From positions 302,785,466 through 302,849,465 of the forward strand of contig CM057009.1 in the NCBI GenBank assembly GCA_029891345.1: a stretch of 64,000 nucleotides of DNA. The letters are read 5' to 3'. The DNA comes from Dryococelus australis (lineage: Eukaryota; Arthropoda; Insecta; Phasmatodea; Phasmatidae). Positions 1 through 53,330 of the stretch are shown here, piece after piece (positions within the stretch are counted from its first letter, which is position 1; each line of letters opens with the position of its first letter). Position numbers and translations under genes: made by a program. Under the pieces are notes generated by a model. The model saw only the letters and a program-made list of their open reading frames with translations, searched no databases and was not told the origin of the DNA.

Positions 1-75
1 GAATCAATTTTATTAAATTTTTACTGTCGATGTAGCGAACAAGCAATGACAACATGCTTGTCACATAACCGCGAT

Positions 76-234
76 TCAACATCTCCGATAAAACAAAGAC
101 GAACTAGTCGTAATTTCCTTTAAACGTATCCGATGATGCAGGTCGTGATAACCATTTTCATAAAGGATATTCTTCACCTCTGTTGTATTCACATTCATAG
201 CTATATTCTTCATCTCTACTTCGTTTCGAACCAT
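76..234 (-). CDS. small uncharacterised ORF, 52 aa, in viral island
   Basis: An ATG-initiated ORF of 52 codons ends at a TGA at the left of the window. The product is mixed polar (VRNEVEMKNIAMNV... then KNILYENGYHDLHHRIRLKEI), with no signal peptide or membrane segment. I do not recognise it. It lies on the same strand as the next decayed viral ORFs (483-1963) and shares their AT-rich composition, which is the main reason to list it. An ORF of this length could arise by chance in AT-rich DNA. Confidence 0.25.
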   Translation of the reverse strand: MVRNEVEMKNIAMNVNTTEVKNILYENGYHDLHHRIRLKEITTSSSLFYRRC

Positions 235-482
235 TTTTGGAATATTTATTTATTTTTCTGATCTTGTCATCGCCGTTGTTGCTTACCCAAAACCCACTGG
301 TTCCACCATTCATTTACCCCAACAATGATGTTTATCCTTTTAATTACGATATTATTTGCTTTGCAATAACATGAGTAGAATATGAATGTCATGTAAAATA
401 AGTTTTATTCTTCAGCCAATAAACCATCGATGAGTGCATGCATGAAATTTTCTTTGTAATGATCAAAGTCAATATCGGGTAG

Positions 483-1102
483 TCATATCGCCTCCTCGAA
501 ACGATCAATCAGATACAATTGATTTTTACTAAATGGGTAAAATTCACGATCGTAAAAAGGAACCTGATGTTCGGCACTTCCTAACACATACTCGGAGAAG
601 ATGATGTATGAAGTGTCCAGTTTTGCCGCATTAAAGAAAGTATTCTCCAACTGGTTTGTCTCAAATTGAAAATCTATCTCGATTGTGCTGACTACAATTC
701 GTACATCTTGGTAATTACACCCACATCGTAACTTCCACTTCAACTTTCAATTTTGTGAGTAATTTCTCCATCAACACACACAATGAAATATGAAGTGATA
801 TATTCAAATCCAAACCTGTACTCGGTGGATTCAATGGATGACTTTACCCAACCTTCCTCGCAATAACCACCGACGTCGTTTCCCATTTGCACCATATGGC
901 CATTTGCCACAATCGATTTCTTGTCATTTCGCATTTGCCTGATTGCCTGATCGATGAACGTGCATCGTCTGAAGTATTCATCCATCCGATCGAGTTTTAA
1001 AGAAAAAACTTCTCTCGATGAACTGCAAGGTATGGAAACTACGATGACTTCACCTTCCTTGAAGGGACCATAAAAGGGAACAAAATACACGAGTTCGTCC
1101 TT
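483..1102 (-). pseudogene. decayed viral-like ORF (two frames)
   Basis: Two minus-strand frames abut: codons from 1102 to 740 (contains YFVPFYGPFKEGEV and YRFGFEYITSYFIVCVDGEI) and, after a one-base shift near 740-745, codons down to 483 (contains FSEYVLGSAEHQVPFYDREF). Neither piece has its own convincing ATG at the junction, so a single frameshifted gene of about 205 codons is the simplest reading. In-frame stops at 1103-1105 and 1127-1129 separate it from the next ORF upstream, so it may even be the C-terminal part of that gene. The product has no obvious membrane segment and no family was recognised. It sits in the viral island. Confidence 0.4.
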
Positions 1103-1126
1103 TTAGTGTCCATATATTGATGGGAC

Positions 1127-1773
1127 TTAGTTTTTGAAATGATCATACATGCTCAGCCATGTGGAAACGTGATCTTGGATGGTGGGCAAGGAACACTCTG
1201 CTGGATTATCCAACACAAACTTGATTGCCAACCCCTCGTTCGATTGCGAGTAGAGGTGAAAAAGGTGGCAAAAAAATACATGTGGACTGAAAAAATCCAT
1301 TACTATGGGTAGAACTAGGTGAAAGTTGGCCTTTTCGGGCCACTGAGTCACCAGACAAGATCCTTTGATGTAAAATGGAAACATGGCTGCAGGAACATTC
1401 TCGACAAACTCAATCACACGATCACACCAAACAATGTTCTCTTTGTACGAGTCGAAATTGTGTTCCTTGTCGATGTCAAAGTCCAACATTATGTGTTGGT
1501 TAGCCAAACTTTTTTTCTGTGCAACCGGCCACAATCGTACTCTGGTCCACACTATAACAAAATACAGTAACGAAAGGGCAAAATTTCCTCCGGGGTGATT
1601 TTATCGAGTGCACTGGATTCGACAGTGGAGATGATTTTGTTTCGATCGTATTTGGTGTCATAACAACCTACGAGTTGCATTATTGTGCGATCCAGATTCG
1701 CATCGACAGTCACTTGGCCAATTTCCTCAATGCGTTTGATAATTTTCTCAATATGATCCCTCTCCTCGTCCAT
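1127..1773 (-). pseudogene. viral-like gene, two overlapping frames (73 aa + 141 aa)
   Basis: A 73-codon ORF starts at ATG 1773 (MDEERDHIEKIIKRIEEIGQ, a short charged helix) and ends at 1552. The following 141-codon frame runs to 1127 and has no ATG at its start; its first internal Met lies in IMLDFDIDKEHNFDS. This is either one gene with a frameshift at about 1552, or two overlapping viral genes. The start at 1773 overlaps the end of the upstream membrane-protein ORF in a stop-then-ATG arrangement (TAAAATGG), a spacing typical of compact viral genomes. The second half is rich in aromatic residues and Cys/His (FFSPHVFFCHLFHLY). No family recognised. Confidence 0.4.
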
Positions 1774-1774
1774 T

Positions 1775-1963
1775 TTACTCGAGACAATAATACTTTTTGC
1801 GAAATGAGACGTATATCAGAATACTTACAAACAAGATCAAAACAAAAATGTTGATCGGAGCTGTATACAGGAAAAAATTTAGGCTGTATTCTCTCGCCAG
1901 AAATGCAGAATACAAACAGTCGAGATTATTCTGCAAGTATTCGTTGGTTTTGTCCGACAACAT
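1775..1963 (-). CDS. small single-pass membrane protein, 62 aa
   Basis: This ORF has an ATG start at 1963 and a TAA at 1775. About 30 N-terminal polar residues (MLSDKTNEYLQNNLDCLYSA) are followed by a hydrophobic stretch of about 22 residues (INIFVLILFVSILIYVSF) and a basic tail (RKK), so a single transmembrane segment is predicted. Nuclear arthropod DNA viruses carry many small virion-membrane proteins of this shape, but no specific match can be claimed. It overlaps or abuts the next ORF at 1773 on the same strand. Confidence 0.4.
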   Translation of the reverse strand: MLSDKTNEYLQNNLDCLYSAFLAREYSLNFFLYTAPINIFVLILFVSILIYVSFRKKYYCLE

Positions 1964-2530
1964 CGACTTGTAGTGTTTGGCTGGAAGAAAAACAATTTAT
2001 TTTTCGTCTTATATACAATGTAATGCTGGTAAATAATACTTTTTTAAATAGTTTTTTTACAAAAGGTGTGTGAGGAAATGAAACAACAATGTACCATGAA
2101 AAAAAAAAGGCTTTTTTATATTTATTGCAAATACCTTCGTGATTACAATTTTCATCATGAATGCATTTTACATCGCTGTATTTTAAGCAGCTGAGAAATG
2201 AACCTTTTCCAAAATAATACAATTCGAGCAATGATAAATGTTCTCTATTATTCTGGGTAATTTTTCGCCAGTTCTCATCGCTTTATTTGCGCATTTCAAG
2301 TATTAATCGCATCAGAGATTCATCACGATGTTCTTTTTTCGAAAACAGTCGTTTTGCATTATCCTGCCGAAATAAAATAACCCTAGTCTTTTTTCGTTCA
2401 TTATTCCTTTTAACTGCAACCTATAATTTCTGATTGAAATTTGTAAATAACTTTTTACATATCTACACGAGGTTGATTTTGTCCATCGTTGTAAAAAATC
2501 CAGGCATTTTTCGTTAAACGAAATATTCAC
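1964..2530 (-). other. AT-rich viral-like segment with a Cys-motif fragment
   Basis: No complete gene is visible. Between about 2110 and 2231 the minus strand encodes a short cysteine motif (KCIHDENCNHEGICNKYKK, C-x6-C-x5-C). It is reminiscent of the Cys-rich N-terminal segments of some per os infectivity factors, but the frame then becomes low-complexity. A second frame with an ATG at 2278 (MRTGEKLPRIIENIYHCSNC) overlaps it, so a frameshifted gene is possible. Positions 2312-2530 hold an unrecognised 72-codon basic ORF. All assignments here are weak. Confidence 0.2.
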
Positions 2531-2899
2531 GAATAAAATGTAAATATACTATTATCTGAAAAATAAATATTATCTGAAAAAAAAATTGTGTAGATTTTGA
2601 TAAACTCGCCCAGTTTCTCGCGTCTCGAATGTAGCTTAAATTTACCAAATTCACCACTGCTATCGTCCCCCTCGCCGCCCTTTTCTTTGTTGTTTTCAAT
2701 TACACACCGCCAAGTGGTTTCGTTTACCGAAATAAGTGTTTTATGTTTTTCTCTTGGCCCAATATGTGTAATTTCAATAGCCGATGCTCGAGCATTAGCA
2801 TAACTATCACCATGGGGTGGTTACATAATTGTGAAGTATTTTTTTCTCAACCACGATGCTCGAATAAATTGATACCATTATATAATATAGTGGAAAGTT
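2531..2899. other. intergenic, AT-rich
   Basis: Short overlapping ORFs occur on both strands, but none has a recognisable motif or convincing composition. I see no gene I can support here. Confidence 0.4.
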
Positions 2900-3463
2900 A
2901 TTTTCCGCGAGTATTTTAAGCATTGATATTTTTGTTTCTGTATCCATTGATACACATGGAACACAGGATAAAAAAATCCAAATTTTCGAGTAAACTCTGA
3001 TAAAGATTGGCATAATTATCATTTTTATTGCGATTATTTTCGCCGGCCAACATTAAATGTAACCATATCCACATCAAAGCCGATTTCGAACCTCTCCATC
3101 ACCTATACATTTCGGGAGTCATTAAAGTTTCGCCATATTCGGGTACGGTCACATCGAAGGCCGACCATTTGTTGCAAACGTCTATCACTATAGTTTTTTT
3201 TTTCGCACGTCATTTGGATTGTGAATGTATTCATCTTTAATTATGTTCTAAATTTCCATCGTTGTTATTTTTTCCGTTTATTACGCAACGAATGTAATAA
3301 ACATTCAATTACCAATAAAAACATTCCTTCGGAAAGTTTAATGTTTTACAATAAGAATGCAGTGTTACATAAAGTGTATAAAGCTGAAAAAATCAAAATT
3401 GTTTTCGGCGATGTCACAAGCATTTTGGCAAACTCGGTTTTTAGAAATGTAGAAAAAAATTAA
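2900..3463 (+). pseudogene. decayed plus-strand ORF with a membrane segment
   Basis: On the plus strand a hydrophobic stretch (TLIKIGIIIIFIAIIFAGQ, about 2990-3050) is followed, after a frameshift, by about 65 codons (IKCNHIHIKADFEPLHHLYI, then GVIKVSPYSGTVTSKADHLL). After a further shift near 3225-3240 about 70 more codons run to a stop at 3461-3463. Read together this looks like a membrane-anchored protein with an N-terminal anchor and an ectodomain, broken by at least one stop and two frameshifts. The family is not recognised. The opposite strand also contains a 71-codon ORF (2807-3022), so strand assignment is uncertain. Confidence 0.3.
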
Positions 3464-3649
3464 TGAGTAATTCCATAGATGAGAAGGATGATTTTTTTTG
3501 TTGTATAAAAACTTGATTTTTCTCGTATTCTTGAATATATAGGCGTTGGAAATAACAGAGCAGTCATTCGTGCAGTTGCAGTGACTGCGAGAAATTTCCA
3601 ACTTATAACTACCTTGACTATTTCCAGTGACGAGATGGTATTTCAACAA

Positions 3650-4446
3650 GATGTTTAATGAACATGGAGATGAACCTAATGAGCGTTAACTACAGTCTTT
3701 GAATGGCAAACTTGAAGCTGATCCTATAGAACATTCTTCGAGAAATGACTGGAGATATTATCAACAAGTGCGATGTTCAACATGGAATACTGATGGTGAC
3801 ACCAGTGATGAAGATGGAGAGGTGTGTTCTACGGATTAAGATGTAAAGAAAGCACAAAAGACTTATATAAAAGAAGAGAAAAAGTTTGTATTTAAAAGGA
3901 GAACAAGACTTTGATATAAGGGAAGAGAAAAAGTTTACTTCAAAAAGGAAAAGGCAAAGTAGTACCAACAGCAGTGATGGGTGTTCAGGGTCATCAAGCG
4001 ACTCTAGTGAAGATGACAAAAAACCTACTCTTAGTAGAAAAATGCCAGAAGAAAAACGTAAGCGGTTGGAAAATATTAATATATCTTCTGTTTTGGTTGT
4101 TGATTTTAAATTTGGCAGATATCGTGGGAAAAAATATCCATTGGAGTTTGGATATGCTACACAATGAGGGTCAAAAATTGTGTATATATCTAGACCTGTT
4201 CCATACATACACTTCGTAAAGAGTATGTCTAATGATCTCGAACAAAATCGCAATTTGTACATGAAAGCACATGGAATACTCTCGGACATTAATGAGAAAG
4301 TCATCAAACTCAAAACAGTTGATTCTATTTTGAAGGAAGCATGGATTAAATTTATAATTTTAGCAAATGAAGAACAGATTATATATTTACAAATGAAGAA
4401 GACTAGTTATTTACGAAAAAAATTAGTGTGTGCAGGAAGAAAATAA
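3650..4446 (+). pseudogene. viral-like gene copy 1: Ser/acidic linker then conserved C-terminal domain
   Basis: One reading frame from about 3886 to 4446 is open except for a single TGA at 4165-4167. The N-terminal part is low-complexity and charged (KRKRQSSTNSSDGCSGSSSD, then SSEDDKKP). The C-terminal part is globular-looking (YISRPVPYIHFVKSM, DSILKEAWIKFIILANEEQI). Acidic and Ser-rich codons continue upstream to about 3650 in another frame (TWNTDGDTSDEDGEV). The same C-terminal pattern recurs, more decayed, at about 4820-5130, so this looks like one member of a small tandem family. Function unknown. Confidence 0.4.
3868..3958 (+). repeat. imperfect tandem repeat, unit about 45 bp
   Basis: The phrase GAAGAGAAAAAGTTT followed by an A/G-rich stretch occurs twice in a row, first at about 3874 and again at about 3922. 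Each copy encodes EEKKF plus Lys/Arg residues. A local duplication inside the charged N-terminal region is the likely cause. Confidence 0.5.
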
Positions 4447-4529
4447 TCATTTGCCACATGAGCGGTTCAAATGAACTTGGAAAAATAAGTCTTGGGACTG
4501 TGCCCTAACCATAGTTCGGTTGATTTGGG

Positions 4530-5290
4530 ATCTAACTGGTAAAGATGTGAACAGGGCAATGGAAGATTCCAATAAATAATTTTAATTCATTTTGTGTAAA
4601 CAAATGTGTATATATTAGGAAAACATAAACACTCATTTCGTATCGAAATGGACATTGAACAAACACAATCGCCCAGGAGTGAGCCGAGGACTATGACGAG
4701 ATAAGCTTCTGGAAAGAAGATACCATAGAAGATTTGTCTTCGCCAGAATTTTTCGAAAATTTCAGTTAAGCAACAACTTTGAACATAATTCTTCAATTGA
4801 ACTACATAAAAATATCATCTACAGATGAAGTGGATTTGGAACTGGATAAAACGTTCCTCTAGAATTTCGATGTGCTACAAAAAGGGTATTTACATTGCGC
4901 ATGTTCAGAGACCAGTTCCATTATCACACCTATGTACAAGTATGTTGAGTGGTTTTGGGCAAATTTGTATCTCTAACGGAAAATACACGGCATACCTTGG
5001 AATCTTTCACATAACGAGTATTGTCCGATGAACATAGAAACAATTCGCAAAATCGTACGCGACAGTTGGATCCGACACACCATTGTGAGAGATTCTCAAA
5101 AAAAATACATTTCCTGATGCAGTTGGGAGTGCCTGCCGAGAAACTCGTAAGAGCTATGCAGAAATTTCCCGTCGAATGTGGCACCTGCAGTTCTCATAGT
5201 CCAAATGTGTATCAACACAGATGTTCTCTTGGCAAATGTACATTTTATTTGGAACTATCTTGTAAGAAAATTTTATTCTCAGTATAACAA
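4530..5290 (+). pseudogene. viral-like gene copy 2 (decayed paralogue of 3650-4446)
   Basis: The plus strand carries an acidic stretch (DYDEISFWKEDTIEDLSSPE, about 4697-4760) and then fragments that match copy 1 in order. RPVP followed by a His-rich phrase lies at about 4910. IRKIVRDSWIRHTIVRDSQKK (about 5042-5105) corresponds to the copy-1 segment around LKEAWIKFIILANEEQ. Several stops and frameshifts are present, so the copy is dead. The shared order of acidic region, RPVP phrase and Trp-Ile-Arg/Lys helix is what supports paralogy; the match is at motif level only. Confidence 0.35.
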
Positions 5291-5320
5291 CTCTTGTGTA
5301 AAAAAAGGAATAGTTGTATT

Positions 5321-5332
5321 GTGTAAATAAAT
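5321..5332. repeat. putative target-site duplication, left copy
   Basis: GTGTAAATAAAT matches 6619-6630 exactly. It brackets the GC-richer inserted block. Confidence 0.4.
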
Positions 5333-6618
5333 GGGGGTAAGGTTGTGTGACTCCTCGGTGAGGCACTTCTTCGGGATTTGATATCCCTGTAGTGTAGTAG
5401 ACAGGAGGAAGGTCCCGGGCATGATAGGTGGTGTGCCAGTACCATGCTATAGTATGCCGAGCTAGGTATGCCCTGCACACAATCTGCACAGGGTGTATGA
5501 TGCGTCTCTTATAGCCACTTTCCACTTAAGGCGACACAAGGCTTCTCAGGCCACCCCTGTTAGTCGCTTAACATATTGGGTAACACCGCCCATTCCCTAT
5601 GGGTTGCCAGAGTCCTCGTGACTGGCGAGAGGTATCTACCAGTATGGTTGGACCGATAGCTGGTACCAAGACTCGACCACTTTGCGGGGTGTTGAACCAC
5701 TTAGCACTCAGGCTATTGAGGACCAAAGTCTGTACTCCAAAGAATAAGTACAAAGACATGGAATTGACTGTGGTTGAGGCCTCCCCCTACCCCCTCTGGC
5801 CGTACAGGGAATTGGTCACGTAACAGAATGGCTTGGTTGCAGTGATGAAATCATGGAGAATATATGACTATATATATTATATAAAATCTACATTTCAGAG
5901 TAAGGGCTGCCATTCCTGGTGAACCACGACACTGGGAAGGGGTCCTGACTGCCCAGCCGCCAGGGTGGTGGTCACTCTGTTATAGAAATTCCCTGCCAAT
6001 TGGGATGTGGCTACCAGGGAGTGGAGTGTGACCGGCCCTTCATTGGGTGTAAGGCTATGCCCGGTGAGGTCTTCTCAACCACTTGTGGAAGGGATTTCCT
6101 CTTGCCACTCCATTGGGGGATAATGACTACCATGATTAACCCACAAGTTCTATGGATATTAAGTGGTAGCACAGGGCGATCGGTTGGCCCCACCATGAGG
6201 TTCTCTCTGGTGTCCGATCATAGGGTTGGACTCGTGCTGGTAGTGGTTAACTCCGTATGCTGGGGGAGGTCTGGAGAGATTCCCACTCTCTATGACAGGC
6301 CAGCCGGTGAATGGCAACCTGCTCCGGTTGTGCCCTGGAAAGGCACTAGGAGTATGGATAGAACCCCGGCCATACCACACGCTTGGTTTCTAAGGACAAG
6401 GATCTCAAAACCTCTGAGAAAGAGGGGACGAGGTTGTGCGGAGGTGCCAGGCTTGGGCTTAGGGTCTGGCCACTGGTCGCATTAATCTTGGCCTTCTTGC
6501 GTTGAGAGGACGTGATTCCTCTTCCCTGCCTATTGGGAGGCCAAAGCGTGGTAAGGCCATAATGCTCAGAGCGCTGCGTAAAAATACAAAATACATGACC
6601 GAGAGGTCCACTGTGCCA
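5333..6618. mobile_element. GC-richer inserted element, class unknown
   Basis: A block of about 1.29 kb is clearly richer in G+C than the AT-rich viral sequence on either side. It is flanked by identical 12-bp copies of GTGTAAATAAAT (5321-5332 and 6619-6630), consistent with a target-site duplication. Short ORFs occur on both strands, the longest 161 codons at 6000-6485 (+), but none shows a transposase, reverse transcriptase or other recognisable motif. It could be a non-autonomous element or a fragment of a retroelement untranslated region. GTGTAAATAAAT also occurs at about 6674, so the duplication is suggestive rather than proven. Confidence 0.5.
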
Positions 6619-6630
6619 GTGTAAATAAAT
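6619..6630. repeat. putative target-site duplication, right copy
   Basis: GTGTAAATAAAT is identical to 5321-5332. A (TG)n/(TA)n stretch follows at about 6637-6676. Confidence 0.4.
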
Positions 6631-6676
6631 CTGTTTTTGTGTGTATATATATATATATGTGTGTATGTGTGTGTGT

Positions 6677-6943
6677 AAATAAATATTTCTTTGTGTTGTA
6701 AATGAACCAATGTATTTGTAAAATATATATTTATAAAATAAATAACTAAATGAAATGATTTAATTTTATTTCATTATAAGTTATAACTCCTATAAAAAAA
6801 TTAATTATTATTCATCTCAGTTATGCATTACAAATTTTGGCCATGAGAAAAAATTTTCAGATTACAATTAATTTAAAATTTGACAGTTTTCGTACGAAAA
6901 TAATAATTGTATTTTAAAAATTTGTTACAAAAACCCACATTAA
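6677..6943. other. AT-rich intergenic stretch
   Basis: This segment is strongly AT-rich, with a small inverted repeat (AATGAAAT and ATTTCATT, about 6749-6776). No ORF here can be supported. Confidence 0.4.
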
Positions 6944-7135
6944 TTACCTCCGCAAATATTTATGTATTTACCCACTTTTATTATTACTGTTATATTCGAT
7001 ATGGTGATTCGCAAAGAGGCCAATTTGTTTTATGTCGATCTGAGTTTATCAACTCGTTTAAAACTGGAAAACGATGACGAGGGGGTTATTGTGGTGTTAA
7101 ATCCTACGGAAAAAAATTTATCAAAATTATGTTAA
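6944..7135 (+). CDS. small uncharacterised ORF, up to 63 codons
   Basis: The frame is open from a stop at 6941-6943 to a TAA at 7133-7135. Candidate starts are ATG 6962 (57 codons) and ATG 7001 (44 codons). The sequence reads like a real protein: a hydrophobic start (FIITVIFD), then ANLFYVDLSLSTRLKLENDD and VIVVLNPTEKNLSKL. It is on the same strand as the decayed ORF starting about 7180. No family recognised. Confidence 0.35.
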   Translation, partial: LPPQIFMYLPTFIITVIFDMVIRKEANLFYVDLSLSTRLKLENDDEGVIVVLNPTEKNLSKLC

Positions 7136-7179
7136 ATACTTTTTTGTGTATGTTGCATTTTCGGAAATATTTATGAAAA

Positions 7180-8240
7180 ATATTCTATTTGCAACACAAT
7201 CTCTTCCCAGGCCCCCAACTCCACCCCGATTATCACCCAGATGCCCACAATCACACGATTCGAATCAAACACATACACTGGGACCTAAGGTCACCATTTA
7301 GATACTCCCGCACCTCGCCCACAATCCCCTCGTCTATATCATGTCTCGACAACAAATGTATCCGAGTCTGTTCCACAAACACACATTAACGAAGAATCGA
7401 ATCACTGTGATGGCGATGATGGCTGCCTGACTGATGTCAAAACCAGAAGCGACGAGGGTAATTGCTTAACATCTGAAGGTTTCGGTAAAGGAGAGAGGGT
7501 GTGGTTACTTTTAATCGATCGTGAAATTCCACCGCATTCCAAAACTATCGACGATAACTCTGAAAAAAAATTTACGCCAACCATTTAAACACAGTCGTAT
7601 GGTTAAATCAATCAAAGAAAAACCCAGAGAGGTATACAAATAATGTAGACGATTACGTCGTCCAATTTCGCTCAGCGACCTTGATAGTTACCACAGCGAT
7701 GAGATGTCTACATCTCCCGAAATGACAATGCCTAGAATGAATGGTGATGATTATCAGGTGATGGCGGTAGCCGACAATCAAAATGTTCCCGAAATTGGCG
7801 ACGAACGTGAGGAAAATAGCATTTTCAACGATAATTTTGTGAATAAGATGTCGACTACGTCTTCTTACACCGGCGGACCTATAATATATTCTAGGTTCGA
7901 GTATTTATCAGGTTTGCAGGATTTATAAATTATGCCAAATGGTAAGTGGACACGATGGCATTTAAATACGACTTATTTCCCAATACTTTAATCACCCAAC
8001 TCGGTTATCCAGAGAAAAAGGAGATTAGGACTTTCGCATATAATTTATTTCTCGAAGCCCAAAATAGGAGACCAGGTGTATATGGAAAATATTTAAACTT
8101 TTTGAAACTCAACCTATATCCCGACCAAAATTACAGAGTTTTTTAAGAGATTCAAGAAAACATTTATAATTCACTGAGATCCGAGCGTTATCTACAAGAA
8201 TTAAAATTGTTGTATAATGTTTACACAAAAGGGTAAATTT
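7180..8240 (+). pseudogene. decayed viral-like ORF with Ser/Pro-rich and acidic regions
   Basis: Plus-strand codons can be followed with a few interruptions. The first part is Pro/Ser/Thr-rich (about 7190-7380). Next come acidic segments (NEESNHCDGDDGCLTDVKTR, about 7388) and WLLLIDREIPPHSKTIDDNS (about 7502). An open frame at 7704-7928 contains EMTMPRMNGDDYQVM and SSYTGGPIIYSRFEYLSGL. After a frameshift a C-terminal segment follows at 7946-8146 (DLFPNTLITQLGYPEKKEIR, NRRPGVYGKYLNFLKLNLYP). Together this suggests one protein of roughly 330 residues with a disordered front and a compact tail. Not recognised. Confidence 0.4.
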
Positions 8241-8331
8241 TTACTAAACGTCCATGATAAATACAAGTCCGTGCTTGCAGTTTCCATTTTGGGTAATATT
8301 ATCGAAAGTTTACTAAATAAATAATTTCAAA

Positions 8332-8477
<146 letters not shown>

Positions 8478-8486
8478 AACCAGATT

Positions 8487-8651
8487 ATGCCAAAACAAAG
8501 GTGACGAAGACGACGTAGTCATAGCAGGAGTAGGTCTCCAAGTCCTTTGCATAGAAGATCATTATCACCCATTCCATGCCAGTGGAGGAGACAAAGTTCT
8601 AGTTTGAGTAAAAAGATAAACAAGTTAAAAAAAATTGTGCATTTAAAATAG
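8487..8651 (+). pseudogene. Arg/Ser-rich basic small protein, core-protein-like, one internal stop
   Basis: A plus-strand frame from ATG 8487 to TAG 8649-8651 spans 55 codons. A single TGA at 8502-8504 interrupts it at codon 6, in a position where CGA (Arg) would fit the surrounding run. After the stop the product reads [20 protein letters not shown], then further Ser/Arg residues, and ends with a Lys-rich helix ([15 protein letters not shown]). Small Arg/Ser-rich DNA-condensing proteins (baculovirus P6.9 class, WSSV VP15 class) have this composition and size. Similarity is compositional only, and an RS-domain fragment of a cellular splicing factor is an alternative. Its place in the viral island favours the viral reading. 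Confidence 0.45.
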
Positions 8652-9060
8652 TTGGAAATGGTTACTACATACACTTAAAATAATTTTAGAAAATCGAGCA
8701 AAATTAATGATTTAAAAAAAAATCGATTTTTTTTGTTAACAACCAAACAAATACATATGTTTACATACATATACCCTTCATTTTTCCATATTACCGATTT
8801 GAATAAACATTTCATTTTCTGTAAATTCCGTATTTTTTATAATAAATTAATTCTTGAAAAATTTCAAGTGTGTACTATGTGTTCTTGACACATCTGTACA
8901 TGTTTCGAGATGGTGAATGATACTCTAAATGCAGTAATTCCTCGCAGTTGGGATGTTTCTTTCGAAGCAAGTTGAGTTGCCTCTTCAAATTTCTTTTATG
9001 TACACAAATTACATAATACGGTCAATTTCAACACTAAGAAATTTGGTTTCAAAAAGTTTC
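8652..9060. other. AT-rich intergenic stretch
   Basis: There are runs of A and T and short ORFs only. The downstream remains of the BRO reading frame (minus strand) may extend into 8900-9060 in shifted frames (EEATQLASKETSQLRG), but I cannot support this firmly. Confidence 0.3.
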
Positions 9061-9567
9061 TTATTTTTTCTGTACTTTCTTGGTGGTATTGGCGACGAGA
9101 GCCTCTTTTGCAGCTCGAGTAAACAATTGTCTCTTCATAACTTCCAAGTCATTGGTTCTTTCTCGGAGTTATTTTCTCAAATACTCGACGTGATTCTGAA
9201 ACATGTACTGTTTACCCTCGCGAATGCACGGGAGAATGTCTCCGTAAATAAAATCTTGAAAATTTTCCACAGAGGGCATTTTGGAATACATAATCAGTCT
9301 GTAAATACCCAGATCATTGATGAAGATGGCGTAGGGCTTCTCGTTGACAATTGTAACTGAAGCTGCATTCGTTGCCAGTTCGTTGAAAGTTCATCTATAT
9401 TTCTCTTTCACATTATCCGTAATAGCATTCCTGTTGTTTTCGTATCCCAATAACCCTGCAACAGTCTTTGCTTTAAACCATATATTAATTTTTCTATCCA
9501 AAAGATAAACAATTTTGTAGTTGTTGTACAAGAAATAATGATTTTTTAAATCCAATATCTTATCCAT
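9061..9567 (-). pseudogene. bro: BRO-family protein (Bro-N domain), two in-frame stops
   Basis: The minus strand from ATG 9567 keeps one frame for 169 codons to TAA at 9061, broken only by TGA at 9391-9393 and TAA at 9169-9171. Residues 25-60 fit the start of a Bro-N domain (INIWFKAKTVAGLLGYENNR). Residues 75-120 carry the family signature (AIFINDLGIYRLIMYSKMPS, FQDFIYGDILPCIREGKQY). A charged helical segment follows (ERTNDLEVMKRQLFTRAAKE). BRO proteins are DNA-binding proteins found in baculoviruses, nudiviruses, filamentous viruses, iridoviruses and entomopoxviruses, and are often multicopy. No frameshift occurs within the 169 codons, so decay here is by nonsense changes alone. The 135-codon ORF on the opposite strand is a shadow. 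Confidence 0.85.
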
Positions 9568-9617
9568 TTTTTAGTTCTTGTTGACAAGAGCACACAGCGA
9601 TTTTATAGATGCACTGT

Positions 9618-10304
9618 TTAATGTGAGTTATCGCATTCCGGTCTCTTTTTTAAATGCAGTCGCATACATATTGCCTTGCCACCCTCCCCCCCCCCCTCAT
9701 TTTTTTCGCAATCCGAAAAAAATATATTTTTTTTCATCTTACTTTTTTTCAAAACCGGATATATTGAAATAATTTTGTGCACATCAAAGCTCGTAAATTT
9801 ATTGTGTTTTGACGGATCGCACATCACACTACCTTTTCTTTTATTGTCGTATAAACCCAGCACATGACTTAATTCGTGAATGTGTACCTGTTGGTAAAAA
9901 AGATAGGACCATATATTATATTTATCAAAACATATGCTTTTGTAGGGAGGTAGGGATGCATGTGCGCATATTGTACCTTCGCCATCGAACGGATCTCCAT
10001 CTCCGTGATCACGGCTGGCGAATTGAATAATGCAGACATTGGAATTGTTTCTATTGGTGCACGTAAAGATTTCAGTTTCAAATTGCCGATTTAACACTTG
10101 GAAAATTAATAGTGTGCTTTTAAAAATTGATTGTTCATTGAGACACAAAGGTATTGTGAAAAATAATTTTCGAAATTTAATAGAAAATTTATTTTTGCTT
10201 CTCTTGTAAATTTCCGGTATAAAGTATCGCATCTCTGTGGAAAAATAAATTAAAACTACAACGACCCCAGTTAACCATAATAATAATAAAATTAATAAAT
10301 ACAT
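9618..10304 (-). CDS. mmp: matrix-metalloprotease-like protein (M10-type zinc protease), intact ORF
   Basis: This is an uninterrupted 228-codon ORF starting at ATG 10304. Residues 1-21 form a signal peptide or membrane anchor (LLILLLLWLTGVVVVLIYF). Residues 99-115 match the matrixin structural-metal region (HGDGDPFDGEGTICAHA; the family pattern is HGD-x2-PFDG-x4-LAHA). The catalytic site is HELSHVLGLYD at residues 143-153, with the Met-turn at 160-161 (GSVM). No PRCGxPD cysteine switch is visible, so there is no classical propeptide. The third zinc ligand, normally His in matrixins, is Asp (HExxHxxGxxD), as in the snapalysin family. MMPs are known from granuloviruses and some other large insect DNA viruses. 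The C-terminal 35 residues are low-complexity. It lies 5 bp from the PIF-3-like gene on the same strand. Confidence 0.8.
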   Translation of the reverse strand: MYLLILLLLWLTGVVVVLIYFSTEMRYFIPEIYKRSKNKFSIKFRKLFFTIPLCLNEQSIFKSTLLIFQVLNRQFETEIFTCTNRNNSNVCIIQFASRDHGDGDPFDGEGTICAHASLPPYKSICFDKYNIWSYLFYQQVHIHELSHVLGLYDNKRKGSVMCDPSKHNKFTSFDVHKIISIYPVLKKSKMKKNIFFSDCEKNEGGGEGGKAICMRLHLKKRPECDNSH

Positions 10305-10309
10305 GCAGG

Positions 10310-10966
10310 TTACGAATTATTATTGATATTTTGAATTGCATGAAAGTTCGTCATGAAATTATCATGGATTGATGGGAAACATCTCAGTATGTGTGGTTGA
10401 AATTCGAAAACACCCAATATCATATCGGCCTTGCATTTACAATCGTTTAATTTAAAACTGGACGTTGTCAGATCGCTCGCGACGATTCCATCCTTGCAGG
10501 GGTACAAAGTCTCAATCCCATCATCGTTCCACACGAGTGGGTAAGTCGAGATACACACCCATTCAATTTCCAAAGGATCGGTGCTTTCCAACACTCTGAC
10601 TATTCCGTGTTTGGAATCACGCGGAACAATGCTTGCGCAATGGGATGAGGCTGTGGGTGATTGTTGGGTTATTGTTGTTGTTACTGAGGTGGGTGTTGCT
10701 TTAATTCGTGGAGTGCATTTATTTTCATCGCAATCGAAATTAAACTTTGATAGATCACATAAAACTTGGCAATCTGACGAATTGATACAGCGAAACAGGT
10801 AGTGATAGGCAATCGACCATCTTGTGAAACATGCCATTATTTGAAAAATTTTTATGCTCGATTAGATGCCAAAATTTTCGGGAATCATCCAATAAGTTAC
10901 ATGTATGCAAAGCGTAGCCATGATAAAGGAAATGCAACCACAACAAACTAAAATACATTTTTTCAT
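10310..10966 (-). pseudogene. pif-3: per os infectivity factor 3-like protein, one internal stop
   Basis: From ATG 10966 the minus strand runs 219 codons in a single frame to its stop at 10310. It is broken only by a TAA at 10862-10864 (codon 35). The first 30 residues hold a hydrophobic anchor (LVCCGCISFIMATLCIH). After the stop come the paired-Cys segments typical of PIF-3 (DUF666): CINSSDCQVLC, FNFDCDENKC, then WVCISTYPLVW, a CKDGI phrase and a CKC motif. Length (about 218 aa), N-terminal anchor and Cys pattern all fit PIF-3, a component of the conserved virion entry complex of baculoviruses, nudiviruses, filamentous viruses and nimaviruses. A Thr/Ser-rich insert (residues 80-95) is unusual. 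Identification rests on Cys spacing and architecture. Confidence 0.7.
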
Positions 10967-11140
10967 TTTAGCTTATTTTTTTCCCCACTCAGTTAAACAA
11001 GTCGTTTTCCATCAAACAGACAAAATATAGCGGAAATTTATACCTATGTATTTTTCAACTATTGTTATTTTCGTCTTTTCCCAAAAGCTCGATTCCAGTT
11101 TAAATTTCGCCCGTATTCGTTTCCACCCCCTTTCGATTCG

Positions 11141-12088
11141 TTAGGTTCTTTGAGATTTGTTTCCATTTAGCTCAATTCCTCTACCACAGGCCGTGTCTAA
11201 AGTAATTTCTTCAATTGGTTGCCGTGCTATTATTTCCTGGTGTTCGATTTCGGTTCTATAGGAATTCAGTTCTACCGGTACTGTTGTGGATTCGTCAGCA
11301 GTATTTACAAGTTGTATTTCTGATCCATTTTTGCATAAATTTAAATCAGTCTATTTTATAACTGGTTCGTCAGAAAGAATGATTTCAGTTTCCGGTTTAT
11401 TTAATTCGCTAATTTCGAACAGCTCTTTCTCATCTACATGATCTTCGCAGTGAACAATGGCAGATACTGTGACTTTGTTCAAATTCTCCCATTCATTATC
11501 TATGTTGTGTAACTTGCATTCATCTTCACTATCATAATCACCATCATCTTTACCATTATTGCCATAATTTGCTTCAATCGCGGCCGTGTTCGGATCGAGC
11601 AGATCCAACACCTGGTCGTTTTCTGCGTGAAACTCGTTACTAGTTTTGTCACCCTAGACCTCCCCGATCGTAGCAGTATTTTTCGAAACTTCGAAATAAT
11701 CATTGGGATTGACCATATCGTCCAACAATGTCAATTTTTCCGCATTGTCAAAAGTTTCGTGAATATTCTTTAAACTTCGTTTAAACGCTTTGAGAACGGA
11801 TTTTGTAAAGTGATAAACGATAAACTCATAAATGGACGAATTTTTCGAAATGTCAATTAAGTCGAAATCTCCTCCTCCTCGACGAAGGTTTATCAGTGTT
11901 CGTCGAAACAATGTTTCTGTACTTGGGAAATTGTCTAAAAATCGAGTCACTGCCAAAATTAATTGATTTATTATGAATGCGCATTTTTCCCGATCATCGA
12001 GAACTACCTGGTCTATAATTTTACATAAGAGAAAAAGGACAATATTTACAAACGAGTCTTTTAAATCACATACTTTTGATGTGGTTTT
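11141..12088 (-). pseudogene. long acidic viral-like ORF with two in-frame TAG codons
   Basis: One minus-strand frame stays in register for 316 codons, interrupted only by TAG at 11654-11656 and TAG at 11351-11353. No ATG is obvious at the upstream edge, so the true N-terminus may be missing. The first half is helical (NIVLFLLCKIIDQVVLDD, AVTRFLDNFPSTETLFRRTL, VYHFTKSVLKAFKRSLKNIH). The second half is very acidic (NGKDDGDYDSEDECKL, HVDEKELFEISELNKPETEI). It then has a Cys-poor tail ending in ELNGNKSQRT. I recognise no family. The layout (folded helical front, acidic disordered back) would suit a structural or tegument-like protein, but this is only inference. Confidence 0.5.
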
Positions 12089-12365
12089 TTACATTGAATA
12101 TACAAATTTTTGTCGATTTTGGTACGTAACAACTATTGAATATTTCACCATCCTGTGTATGACACAAGAGTTTGTTATATATTTCAGTAGAGTAGTAATA
12201 ATCGTTTAAGGTAAGATTTTTTTTTGAGAATCCAAAATAGTATAAATGTATTTGTTTATTTTTTCTTTATTTAGGGTCATGATGAGGCCTTATATCCAAA
12301 AGACATACAAAATTACGTACAAAAAACTCACTTTACAAACATATATACTTTTTAAATAAAACATT
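12089..12365. other. AT-rich intergenic stretch in viral island
   Basis: No supported gene. Short ORFs on the plus strand lack any motif. Confidence 0.4.
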
Positions 12366-12776
12366 TTAAAAAATACATGCATTTTCCATCATACAAAGTC
12401 CATGGTGGGTGATACATCGTGAGAAAAGTACTGAGTCATCTACATCCTTCACCTCCTCTAGAAAATTTGTTATATGGTTTTCGAGGTCATGGATCGAGTT
12501 GGTGAATAGGTATGGGGGCAGAAATTGACTGCACAAAATATTGTATTTTTCCACATTTGAAACGTATATATGTTTGTAATTCCTCAGAATTTTTTGCACT
12601 ATACTCAACACACACTTGTAAGGTGCCCACCCTTCATACTAGTGTATTCCATGCACATGTAAAAATGAATTTCGGATATCTGAATTGGTCTCATCACTGA
12701 AACAAGTTAGCTTACATGGAGGTCCAAAAATGTAGTTGTATACGATTAGTTTCAATGATGAAAATAGCCAACTCCT
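12366..12776 (-). pseudogene. unrecognised viral-like ORF, one in-frame TAG
   Basis: The minus strand stays in one frame for 137 codons from a stop at 12777 to a stop at 12366, broken by TAG at 12639-12641. The sequence has protein-like composition throughout: LIVYNYIFGPPCKLTCFSDE, YEGWAPYKCVLSIVQKILRN, CSQFLPPYLFTNSIHDLENH, and a Cys/His-containing end (RCITHHGLCMMENACIF). No domain was recognised. No convincing ATG is seen at the start, so the N-terminus may be truncated. Confidence 0.45.
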
Positions 12777-12887
12777 TTATGTAAAATGTTTAAAGAATTT
12801 CAAAACCCTGAAAGTCGACTAGGCAAATCGAATGAACTTCATCATCTACAACAGGAACAAGAACACTGATGGCAGCGGCTGCAACAT

Positions 12888-12996
12888 CACCATCTTAACA
12901 CTCTCACCACCCGCTGTTTTCCATAGCATCACCATCTACACCCTCTCGCCATCCGGTGATTTCCATCGCATCACCATCTTCACTCTCGTCGTCCAT
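12888..12996 (-). repeat. 42-bp minisatellite inside a viral-like ORF
   Basis: About two and a half copies of a 42-bp unit start with CATCACCATCT at about 12887, 12929 and 12971. On the minus strand each unit encodes a phrase like DGDAMExxGWxEG. The copies differ at several bases. Confidence 0.75.
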
Positions 12997-13224
12997 TGAT
13001 TTCCGACGAGGGATTTGGCAAATAAGATCTCTCCATCTCTGATTTATGCGAAGGCAAATCATATATGTCGAGACACTGAGCATTGTATCCACAAATAAAA
13101 CATTGACAGAAGGCAGGTTGGTGGGCACATGCTCCTCGTGTATCACACCTCGTCGACATGATGCTTTTCTCGACGACAAAGACTGATTGATGAGGTTCGA
13201 TGCATTCCTAGGGTTGTATACCAT
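12904..13224 (-). CDS. unrecognised ORF, 106 aa, with C-terminal repeats
   Basis: The ORF has ATG at 13224 and stop at 12904. The N-terminal half is basic and polar (RNASNLINQSLSSRKASCRR), with a predicted strand or helix region in the middle (VNVLFVDTMLSVSTYMICLR). The C-terminus contains repeats (EDGDAMEITGWREGVDGDAM). After the stop the same frame continues with another repeat unit and VAAAAISVLVPVVDDEVHSI, so the stop may be a disabling mutation. It is the rightmost ORF of the viral island. Confidence 0.4.
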   Translation of the reverse strand: MVYNPRNASNLINQSLSSRKASCRRGVIHEEHVPTNLPSVNVLFVDTMLSVSTYMICLRINQRWRDLICQIPRRKSMDDESEDGDAMEITGWREGVDGDAMENSGW

Positions 13225-13392
13225 CGAGTTGCCAATAATAAAAAAAAATTTTTATGTATCTAATTTTTTTAATTGTACGTGAGTTGGTTAAATAAAATTT
13301 GTTGAAGGTTGGTATTTTAAATATTTCTTTATTTGTGTAATTCCCTGTGGACTTATTTTACCATGAACAATGAACAATGTGGGTTTTAAGCA
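13225..13392. other. junction between viral island and Gypsy sequence
   Basis: AT-rich sequence up to about 13,330, then sequence belonging to a retroelement leader (minus strand). The exact breakpoint cannot be set by eye. Confidence 0.35.
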
Positions 13393-18388: not shown

Positions 18389-19608
18389 TGCCACCTCACG
18401 ATATACAAGACACTACTACTCTCTGCTTGATCTGGAGATCGCTCGTTGGTCAAGACTCCCACCGACAAATCACATGATGTGATTCATTTCATGACTGATG
18501 ACAGTAAATGTAATGGAATGAACAACTGCAATGCCGATGAGATGAAATCAATTAAAAAACCCTTTCTTATAAATTAAATATGCATACGAAAAACATACAA
18601 AAATGAAATACAACTTAACCACCCTCGATTGCCGTGGCAATCTAACCTCACTTTCCACATATTTTCAAATGATATTATAACTTTGTGGGATTCTTCCTGT
18701 GTTAAGTCTATTATACCTTTATGCATAAAAATTATGGCAAATTATGTGGACATTAAACATAACACATATAAACAAAGATAATAATTACTTAATATATTTG
18801 TAAGTTAACCAGCCACGTGGTTAAGCACATGGCTAGGCACAAGTTCATTCGAAATGTTAATGTTCATAATACTGGCAGAGTTCAGTAACACAATACTGAC
18901 CATACTGAACTTATATTTTAAATTTTCTAAAAACATGTTTACTTCTTGTAAACCTCACGTAATAATTAATAAATCATTTTTACACTGATCTTTTCCCATT
19001 GGTGTTATGTGTAGTTATTTGTGCCTGATCGAGATGGTGCACCGAATGCATTGACTTTTGGAACACATAAAATGTAAGCAACAACTCAACTATTACTGAA
19101 ATAATTATACTCAACAAAACACTGCACTGCGAGACTATTTGCCTCTAGTACTTATGAGTGATAGATACAAGGAAACATGGAACAAAAATAAAATTATGAC
19201 ATAAGCGCTGGAATAGATGAGACACACAACCCTAAATTGACAACATATACAATACCACTGGCAAAAACAATTGGTTGCAGAAACTACCTCTGGTGCACTG
19301 TGGGCATGTAATCCAGCTTTAGTAGCACACGAGATACACAACAAATATAATAATAAAATGGCACTGAAGGAATAACATAAAAATAAAGATAAACACAATA
19401 CACACGACTCAAGACTGCCCTAATAAATTAAAGAAGCCTTTTGAAAAACACAGTATATACTGGTTTACACTATGCCCTGCATGAACACACCCAACCATTG
19501 ACAATGACTGAAGTAAACGGGTGCTCTCTTGTGATGCTGTTGTGAGCTGTGATGTTCTGTAGCCACAATATAGTGAATTGCCTGGGGCCAAGGCGTGGTC
19601 CACGTCAA
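18389..19608 (-). mobile_element. Gypsy element B, left (3') LTR, about 1.22 kb
   Basis: A direct repeat of about 1.2 kb matches 22754-23970 along its whole length with many substitutions (roughly nine in ten bases agree by eye). It begins TG and ends CA on the plus strand. On the minus strand it begins TGACGTGGACCACGCC, preceded by a polypurine tract at 19609-19622. Confidence 0.85.
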
Positions 19609-22753: not shown

Positions 22754-23970
22754 TGGTCACCACGCGAGAGACGAGATGCTACTACTCTCTGCTTGGCGCG
22801 GAGGTCGCTCATTGGCCGAGATTCCCACCGAGAAATCACGTGCCGTGATTAATTGCATGAGTGATGACAATAAATGTAATGAAATGGACAACTGCAATGC
22901 TGATGAGATTAAATCAAATAAAAACCCTTTCTTATAAATTAAATATGCGTACAAAAAACATACAAAAATGAAATACAACTTAATCACACTCGATTGCTAT
23001 GGCAATCTAACCTCACTTTCCACATCTTTTCAAATTATGTTATATCTTTGTGGAATTCTTCCTGTGTTAAGTCTATAATACCATTATGCATAAAAATTAT
23101 GGTAAATTATGTGAACACTAAACATAGCACATATAAACAAAGATAACAATTACGTAATATATTTGTAAGTTAACCAGCCATGTGGTTAAGCGCATGGCTA
23201 GGCACCAGTTCATTCGAAATGTTAATGTTCACAATACTGGCAAAGTTCAGTAACACAATACTGACCAAACTGTACTTATATTTCTAATTTTCTAAAAACG
23301 TGTTTACTTCTTGTAAACTTCACGTAATAATTAATATATAATACTTACACTCATATTTTCCCAATGGTGTTATGTATGGCCATTCGAGCCTGATCGAGAT
23401 GGCGCACCAAATGCACTGACTTTTGAACACTTAAAATTTAAACAACAACACAACTATTACTGAAATAATTATACACAACAAAACACTGCACTGCGAGACT
23501 ATTTGCTACTGATACTTACATGTGATAGATGCAAGGAAACATGGAACAAATGCAAATATATGATGTAGCCTAAGTGCTGGCTTACATGAGACACATAACT
23601 CTAAAATGGCAACAAAAACATTAACACTGGCAATGACACTTGGTTGCATGAACTACTTCTGAGGCACGGGGGGCACGTGATTCAGCTTTAGTAGCACACG
23701 AGTTACACAACAAATATAATAATGTAATGGCACTGCAGGAATAAAATAAAAATAAACACTATACACACGACTCAACACTTCGCTAATAAATTAAAGAGGC
23801 CTTTGAAAAACACAATATACACTTGTTTACACTATGTGCTTCACGAACACGCGTACAAGCGGACACTTCCTGAAGTTAACGGGTGCCCTCTCGTGGCACT
23901 GTTATGACCTGTGACGTTGCTGTAGGCACGACGTGGTGAATGGCTTGGGTCCAAGGTGTGGTCCACGTCG
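22754..23970 (-). mobile_element. Gypsy element B, right (5') LTR
   Basis: This is the second copy of the 1.2-kb direct repeat (partner 18389-19608). Its plus-strand end reads CG where the partner has CA. It is followed at once by sequence homologous to the LTR of element A rather than by unrelated flank. Confidence 0.8.
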
Positions 23971-53160: not shown

Positions 53161-53330
53161 TGGGGGCTCTCACGAGCTGCTGTAGAGAGCACACCATCAC
53201 CACAGCCTCTGCAGATAGTTGCAGGTATATCTGCCCAGAGACTGCTTTGGAATCGGCAGTGACGATCGGGCCATTCATACAGCTGACAGCGAATGAGAGG
53301 TTAAGCCTAACCTAACCTAAGTGAGTAATT
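53161..53330 (+). repeat. dispersed repeat, copy 1, with telomere-like tail
   Basis: GGGGGCTCTCACGAGCTGCT and onward matches 57895-58040 with about four in five bases identical (shared GCTGTAGAGAGCACA, CTCTGCAGATA, CCCAGAGACT). It ends in CCTAACCTAACCTAA (53311-53325), the complement of the arthropod TTAGG telomere unit. Confidence 0.8.

Follow-up and report, generated by a model that had tools for sequence, protein, structure and literature searches.

The pif genes are regarded as a mark of the viral class Naldaviricetes (PMC10271883). PIF-1, PIF-2 and PIF-5 also belong to the features of the class, as do a circular genome, an enveloped nucleocapsid of rod shape and replication in the nucleus. 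Among large DNA viruses that have become part of animal genomes, the endogenous nimaviruses of crustaceans (majaniviruses, clopoviruses and others) are multi-copy elements, their number being estimated at 22 to 477 per haploid genome (PMC10871703). For multi-copy elements of this sort, the choice between one infection followed by multiplication and repeated infection is left unresolved, as the copies are too alike (PMC10871703). The subject of the present analysis is a 64,000-nucleotide stretch of the genome of the phasmatid insect Dryococelus australis, referred to here as the window (C17:302785466-302849465; contig C17 is 326.6 Mb long, in an assembly of 3,415,067,245 bases and 646 contigs), and the block of DNA from a PIF-bearing virus with which the window begins. 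The favoured reading, to which a probability of about 0.6 is assigned, is that the germ line was entered by one lineage of PIF-bearing virus, which multiplied there in a single short burst and then died, its copies decaying afterwards; the window contains a portion of one of them. Their age and divergence allow the copies to be assigned individually to chromosomal positions, so that a choice between a burst and repeated infection becomes testable.

Dispersed copies of a PIF-bearing virus

The viral origin of this DNA, first proposed in an initial annotation, is supported by matches to PIF-3 and BRO profiles within the block. The PIF-3 gene (10313-10967, minus strand) matches the PIF3 profile over 10,310-10,837 with an E value of 2.1e-16, far above the Pfam cut-off, and its main open piece is 10313-10861. 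A start region resembling that of P0001 and P0002, the two database relatives described below, precedes a stop that shares the frame of the main piece, and a stretch between that region and the main piece lies in another frame; the gene is therefore broken. The predicted structure of the PIF-3 piece has a mean pLDDT of 32 and is unusable.

When the insect's own genome was searched with the PIF3 profile (PF05006), at least 150 matches were found, all over the cut-off (the best 150 of 269 candidates). A search of the same genome for other viral core genes had been suggested in the initial annotation, and it was productive: the p74/PIF-0 profile (PF04583) has at least 145 matches (145 among the best 150 of 380 candidates), none of which lies within the window. 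Neither profile matched in any of 14 control genomes. Because PIF-0 and PIF-3 are both present, the virus is, as judged from its genes alone, of Naldaviricetes kind. Late transcription genes such as lef-8 characterise the order Lefavirales (baculo-, nudi- and hytrosaviruses). The LEF-8 profile (PF04941) had no match among 3 candidates in the insect genome and none in the 14 control genomes either, so that this last search has no positive control.

Among the matches listed, PIF-3 is found on 16 contigs; the contigs with matches are numbered C1 to C17, and some are 200-400 Mb long. The distribution of the listed matches is uneven, in that C17, which holds 9.6% of the bases, has 37 of the 150 PIF-3 and 38 of the 145 p74 matches (binomial p 6e-8 and 7e-9), an excess of about 2.6-fold, and the listed PIF-3 matches on contig C1 are clustered at 172-237 Mb. 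The p74 matches fall into two classes of profile span, one reaching about position 196 of the profile over 640 bases and the other about position 166 over 400 bases; these may represent two p74 genes or two virus lineages.

Copies were compared by means of 20 stretches, each of 9.9 kb and including a PIF-3 match; 19 of these matches are high-ranked, and one lies 203 kb from the window. All 20 align with the viral block of the window, at a DNA identity per piece of 73-89%, mostly 78-86%. Coverage is complete (20/20) at 10.5 kb, 19/20 over 11.25-12 kb, and 13-14/20 over 6.75-8.25 kb. The copies differ through internal deletions and rearrangements; for instance, window position 2230 is joined to 10289 in L015 and 4179 to 10013 in L024, and one of the joins in L028 is inverted.

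The size of the units can be gauged from the position of p74. For 35 of the 145 listed p74 places a listed PIF-3 match lies within 150 kb, compared with a mean of 2.6 and a maximum of 7 in 200 trials of random placement, in which lengths were assumed for some contigs. In 26 of these 35 pairs p74 is on the 5' side of PIF-3 and in nine on the other side; of the 26, 24 are at a distance of 18-58 kb, and 22 of those 24 are on the opposite strand. The remaining 110 p74 places have no listed PIF-3 match within 150 kb. Given this often fixed arrangement, many copies were segments measuring 20-60 kb or more, counting later insertions. The suggestion in the initial annotation that about 12 kb of viral genome had been integrated thus falls short: the genome has at least 150 dispersed copies, of which the block is one, many copies come from larger proviral segments, and the block itself extends beyond the window.

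Divergence, decay and the origin of the copies

A PIF-3 tree of 21 copies together with P0001 and P0002 (midpoint root) separates the copies from the two relatives with support of 99/98. The tree is star-like, with 17 of 20 inner branches unsupported. The window and L028 (C17:302994200-303004100) form a supported pair (100/100); the two are 203 kb apart, and their PIF-3 genes are on opposite strands. The Kimura two-parameter (K2P) distance among 16 copies over 2.1 kb is 0.153 (standard deviation 0.022; 120 pairs, with values of 0.106-0.200); loci that do not span this stretch, three of the 20, were left out. Between the window and L028 the distance is 0.124, and between these two and the remaining copies 0.169 and 0.148, respectively. 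The neutral rate in insects is near 3e-9 per site and year. If half of the distance of 0.153 represents decay since the burst, this rate places the burst some 25 million years ago, an age whose error is easily a factor of two or more.

The ratio of non-synonymous to synonymous substitution (dN/dS) between copies is 0.72 for the MMP gene, 0.67 for the BRO gene and 0.71-0.72 for two unassigned frames, whereas a frame at 4.5-5.1 kb has a value of 0.62 and the gene upstream of PIF-3 one of 0.57. Neutral simulation gave 0.74 at a kappa of 3, 0.87 at 2 and 0.72 at 4, the estimate of kappa from the data being 2.9. For PIF-3 the ratio is 0.48 in the top-ranked copies and 0.65 in 20 lower-ranked copies, and it is biased in that the copies were chosen by PIF-3 score; for this reason a strong constraint on PIF-3, suggested by a first value of 0.50, was dropped. 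Thus, four of the seven frames look neutral since insertion. In-frame stops average 0.7-2.4 per copy and frame.

The star-like tree, the narrow divergence and the near-neutral decay of several genes favour one burst. As the favoured reading has it, a large PIF-bearing DNA virus of Naldaviricetes kind would have entered the host germ line, and a single burst of multiplication there would have given rise to at least 150 dispersed segments. It is because the tree is star-like and the spread of divergence narrow that multiplication is placed inside the germ line, where the copies would have come from near-identical source genomes, perhaps viral episomes re-inserted by a viral or borrowed integrase. 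The virus would have been silent afterwards, and the copies would have decayed via point mutation, deletion, rearrangement and transposon insertion. A bolder version of this reading, offered tentatively, is that an undescribed, family-level lineage of PIF viruses behaved as a giant self-copying germ-line element in an arthropod with very large chromosomes. It would have risen in a synchronous burst to hundreds of copies and become completely extinct, and one viral genome would be preserved as a fossil population that can be dated.

Several observations weigh against a single burst. No viral terminus, integrase or target-site duplication of the virus's own turned up in the sequences at hand, a genome-wide search for them not having been made. 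All fetched copies derive from PIF-3 matches. The separate pairing of the window with L028 indicates that not all copies are of one event, and the three frames under the neutral value may reflect constraint before or between insertions, as would be seen in repeated infections.

The most serious competitor is that the germ line was infected independently many times, over a short period, by strains closely related to one another; each infection would have left a copy, with no amplification in the germ line. This explanation is considered unlikely, although it would account for the lowered ratios in three of seven frames (0.57, 0.62 and, for PIF-3 in lower-ranked copies, 0.65) and for the window/L028 pair, and the existence of P0001 and P0002 suggests that the lineage occurs elsewhere. 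The star-like tree and narrow divergence, however, demand that the infecting strains were near-identical and arrived within a short time, and the MMP and BRO genes and two other frames are near neutral.

In a second alternative, a few insertions were multiplied by segmental duplication of the host, for instance in particular regions of chromosomes and on C17. The excess of PIF-3 and p74 matches on that contig, the C1 cluster and the window/L028 pair, with its separation of 203 kb and opposed PIF-3 strands, are what duplication of this kind could produce. Close pairs are nevertheless absent, the smallest K2P distance among the 16 copies being 0.106, and PIF-3 is spread over 16 contigs with a tree that is star-like rather than nested, making this explanation improbable. 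Retention of a domesticated virus for a host function, as in parasitoid wasps, is more improbable still: the MMP frame of the window is open and the PIF-3 matches of some copies are stop-free, but stops occur in the frames of the copies, and dN/dS is near, or not far under, the neutral value. Finally, an assembly chimera or contaminating exogenous virus, a doubt raised in the initial annotation, can be practically dismissed with PIF-3 on 16 contigs, copies that differ from each other by 10-20%, and the window's viral block interrupted by a transposon.

The viral block and its flank

Alignment to the genome copies defines the viral block as window positions 1-13,365 minus 5,333-6,618, with a leftward extension past base 1. 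The initial annotation had given 1-13,300, and while viral DNA does occupy this interval, it reaches slightly further to the right, excludes an internal segment and continues left of the window. The packing of open frames that had been noted there exceeds chance: between 1 and 13,300 there are 39 open frames of at least 80 codons versus 11.2 expected, and 15 of at least 100 codons versus 3.2 expected, the longest having 232 codons versus a mean of 127 (300 dinucleotide shuffles in each case). Its description as AT-rich holds in a mild form, with 60-68% AT per 2-kb bin across 1-14 kb and several flanking bins equally AT-rich. The block is also endogenous and decaying, as had been supposed; it lies inside a 326.6-Mb contig, has been entered by a transposon, and its BRO and PIF-3 genes and their neighbours contain stops or frame changes.

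A scan for protein families covered 150 of the 156 block frames of at least 45 codons, the six frames in AC/AT repeat being left out. Six Pfam families were matched at E of 0.003 or below, and there was no NCBIfam match up to E 0.003 in the same 150 frames. The two weakest of the six, TILa (E 0.0026) and PARG (E 0.0029), are at chance level for that many scans. BRO, MMP-like and PIF-3-like genes had been reported in a row on one strand, and all three genes do follow one another on the minus strand. The BRO gene (8878-9570) combines Bro-N and DUF3627 within a single frame, which is interrupted by stops at 9391-9393, 9169-9171 and further positions. Bro-N is found in two open pieces of that frame (9,394-9,570, E 3.7e-7; 9,172-9,390, E 3.9e-7), with DUF3627 behind them (8,878-9,021, E 5.5e-7). 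Among frames from the copies and the left flank, of which 90 of the 137 listed were scanned with Pfam, one has Bro-N at E 8.6e-19, and matches beyond Bro-N and DUF3627 are weak.

The MMP-type metalloprotease (9618-10304, minus strand) is an open frame of 228 amino acids that matches Peptidase_M10 with an E value of 1.3e-14, far above the cut-off. A hydrophobic N-terminal stretch is present, as judged by eye. The zinc motif reads HELSHVLGLYD, with D in the place of the usual third histidine of MMPs, and the best relative among solved structures is neutrophil collagenase (E 2.2e-7).

The left part of the block (1-5332), which goes on left of the window, is matched at the DNA level by copies such as L015 (from base 3), L024 (from base 5) and L023 (from 3452). 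In addition, L029, which comprises the 10 kb left of the window, matches L012, L015, L021, L024 and L028 over at least 600 bases each. Overlapping open pieces at 486-1815 (minus strand), present in copy L007/L015 and with no Pfam family over the cut-off, are probably one broken viral gene, and the frame of the last piece continues beyond a stop at 483-485. Open pieces of unassigned function on the plus strand at 3871-5284 are shared by about 13 of 20 copies at 5001-5250 and by fewer leftward; being common to copies, this stretch is viral and not a later insertion. Three of these pieces (4168-4443, 4810-5028, 5015-5284) have no Pfam match. A transposon insertion at 3.6-5.1 kb had been considered, and was ruled out as other copies have that stretch.

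To the right of the excluded segment, viral open pieces continue on the plus strand at 6643-8330, with 13-14 of 20 copies over 6751-8250; two examples, 7644-7925 and 7946-8143, are without a Pfam family over the cut-off. An (AC)n(AT)n repeat lies within the block at 8331-8475, and frames containing similar repeats occur in copies such as L011 and L013. Beyond PIF-3, a viral gene on the minus strand at 11144-12266, with no family over the cut-off, is shared by 19 of 20 copies at 11251-12000; it is interrupted by two stops (11351-11353, 11654-11656), and its frame changes near 12.07-12.09 kb. More viral pieces are found on the same strand at 12369-13251 (16-18 of 20 copies at 12251-13250); it is here that the TILa match falls, under the cut-off.

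The edge of the block lies at 13361-13378, where the alignment of the window to the copies stops and the copies continue with shared sequence. Of the 20 copies, 17 cease to match the window at 13,343-13,370 and three before that, and past this point all 17 copies printed carry on alike, most of them for about 2 kb. As the copies run on past about 13.37 kb, the edge is a cut of the window copy's own, and position 13,361 was ruled out as a shared viral end; no other end was reached.

The excluded segment (5333-6618) is a later transposon insertion. It is missing in all 14 of the 20 fetched copies that cover both sides, and is bounded by a 12-bp target-site duplication, GTGTAAATAAAT, at 5321-5332 and 6619-6630. 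The uninterrupted site is seen in five copies, in one of which (L016) there is a point change. The absence of the segment from the copies and the duplicated GTGTAAATAAAT together indicate that the viral DNA was already part of the host chromosome when the transposon inserted into it.

The rest of the window (13379-64000) is transposon-rich host sequence, as the initial annotation had described it, with domains interpreted as being of Gypsy, piggyBac and LINE type; of nine frames scanned there, six carry a transposon-type domain (DDE_Tnp_1_7, RVT_1, rve, Exo_endo_phos). Compared with the 20 fetched copies, this flank has no match save one near 16.5 kb. It includes a 1.2-kb direct repeat with 85% identity in a Gypsy-rich part (18392-19606 and 22758-23969), perhaps old long terminal repeats, and a short telomere-like pentanucleotide tract at 53306. 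At another locus, L030 (C5:161.40 Mb), frames outside the viral block look by eye like a Copia-type element.

Relation to described viruses

Searches of 5.8 billion proteins with PIF-3 returned two relatives, P0001 and P0002, which are respectively 61% and 50% identical to the window, and the MMP search of the same collection a single weak match, P0003. Such searches require shared 5-residue words and are insensitive, and so do not show that named viruses lack relatives. No relative was found in IMG/VR with PIF-3, MMP, two PIF-3 alignments or p74 as query, nor any match in the PDB with P0001, the PIF-3 pair or p74. In a literature search covering titles and the openings of abstracts, no report of elements of this kind in insects was found, most subscription papers being outside the search. 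The copies would provide abundant sequence data on a virus lineage with no named member among the results of these searches.

Individual features of the virus recur in several described viruses. Nudiviruses have both PIF-3 and p74, but in the lobster nudivirus PIF-3 adjoins a helicase gene (PMC6626001), whereas here it adjoins the MMP gene. Apis mellifera filamentous virus (AmFV) has pif-3, p74, BRO and Peptidase_M10 genes, as does the virus described here, yet the genome of this bee virus is described as 50.8% GC (PMC4517127), as compared with about 37% for the block in the window. The LGDV-like elements of ants are likewise naldaviricete genes endogenised in insects, and LGDV also has BRO genes; these elements differ in having 1 to 37 viral homologues per ant scaffold, and a burst of 150 colinear copies is not described in the excerpted account (PMC12548425).

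In penaeid shrimp and isopods, the endogenous nimaviruses (majani- and clopoviruses) are linked to (TAACC/GGTTA)n repeats (PMC10871703), unlike the copies here: in 52 of 52 fetched loci (0.9-10 kb, partly overlapping, with true ends that may lie outside) there is no telomere-like pentanucleotide tract of at least three units. Nimavirus copies are also called almost identical (PMC10871703), whereas those in D. australis are 10-20% apart. In both systems, nonetheless, PIFs are conserved in a large virus that is present in many copies in the host genome (PMC10871703), and by these two features, PIFs and copy number, the endogenous nimaviruses of crustaceans would seem to be the nearest known situation.

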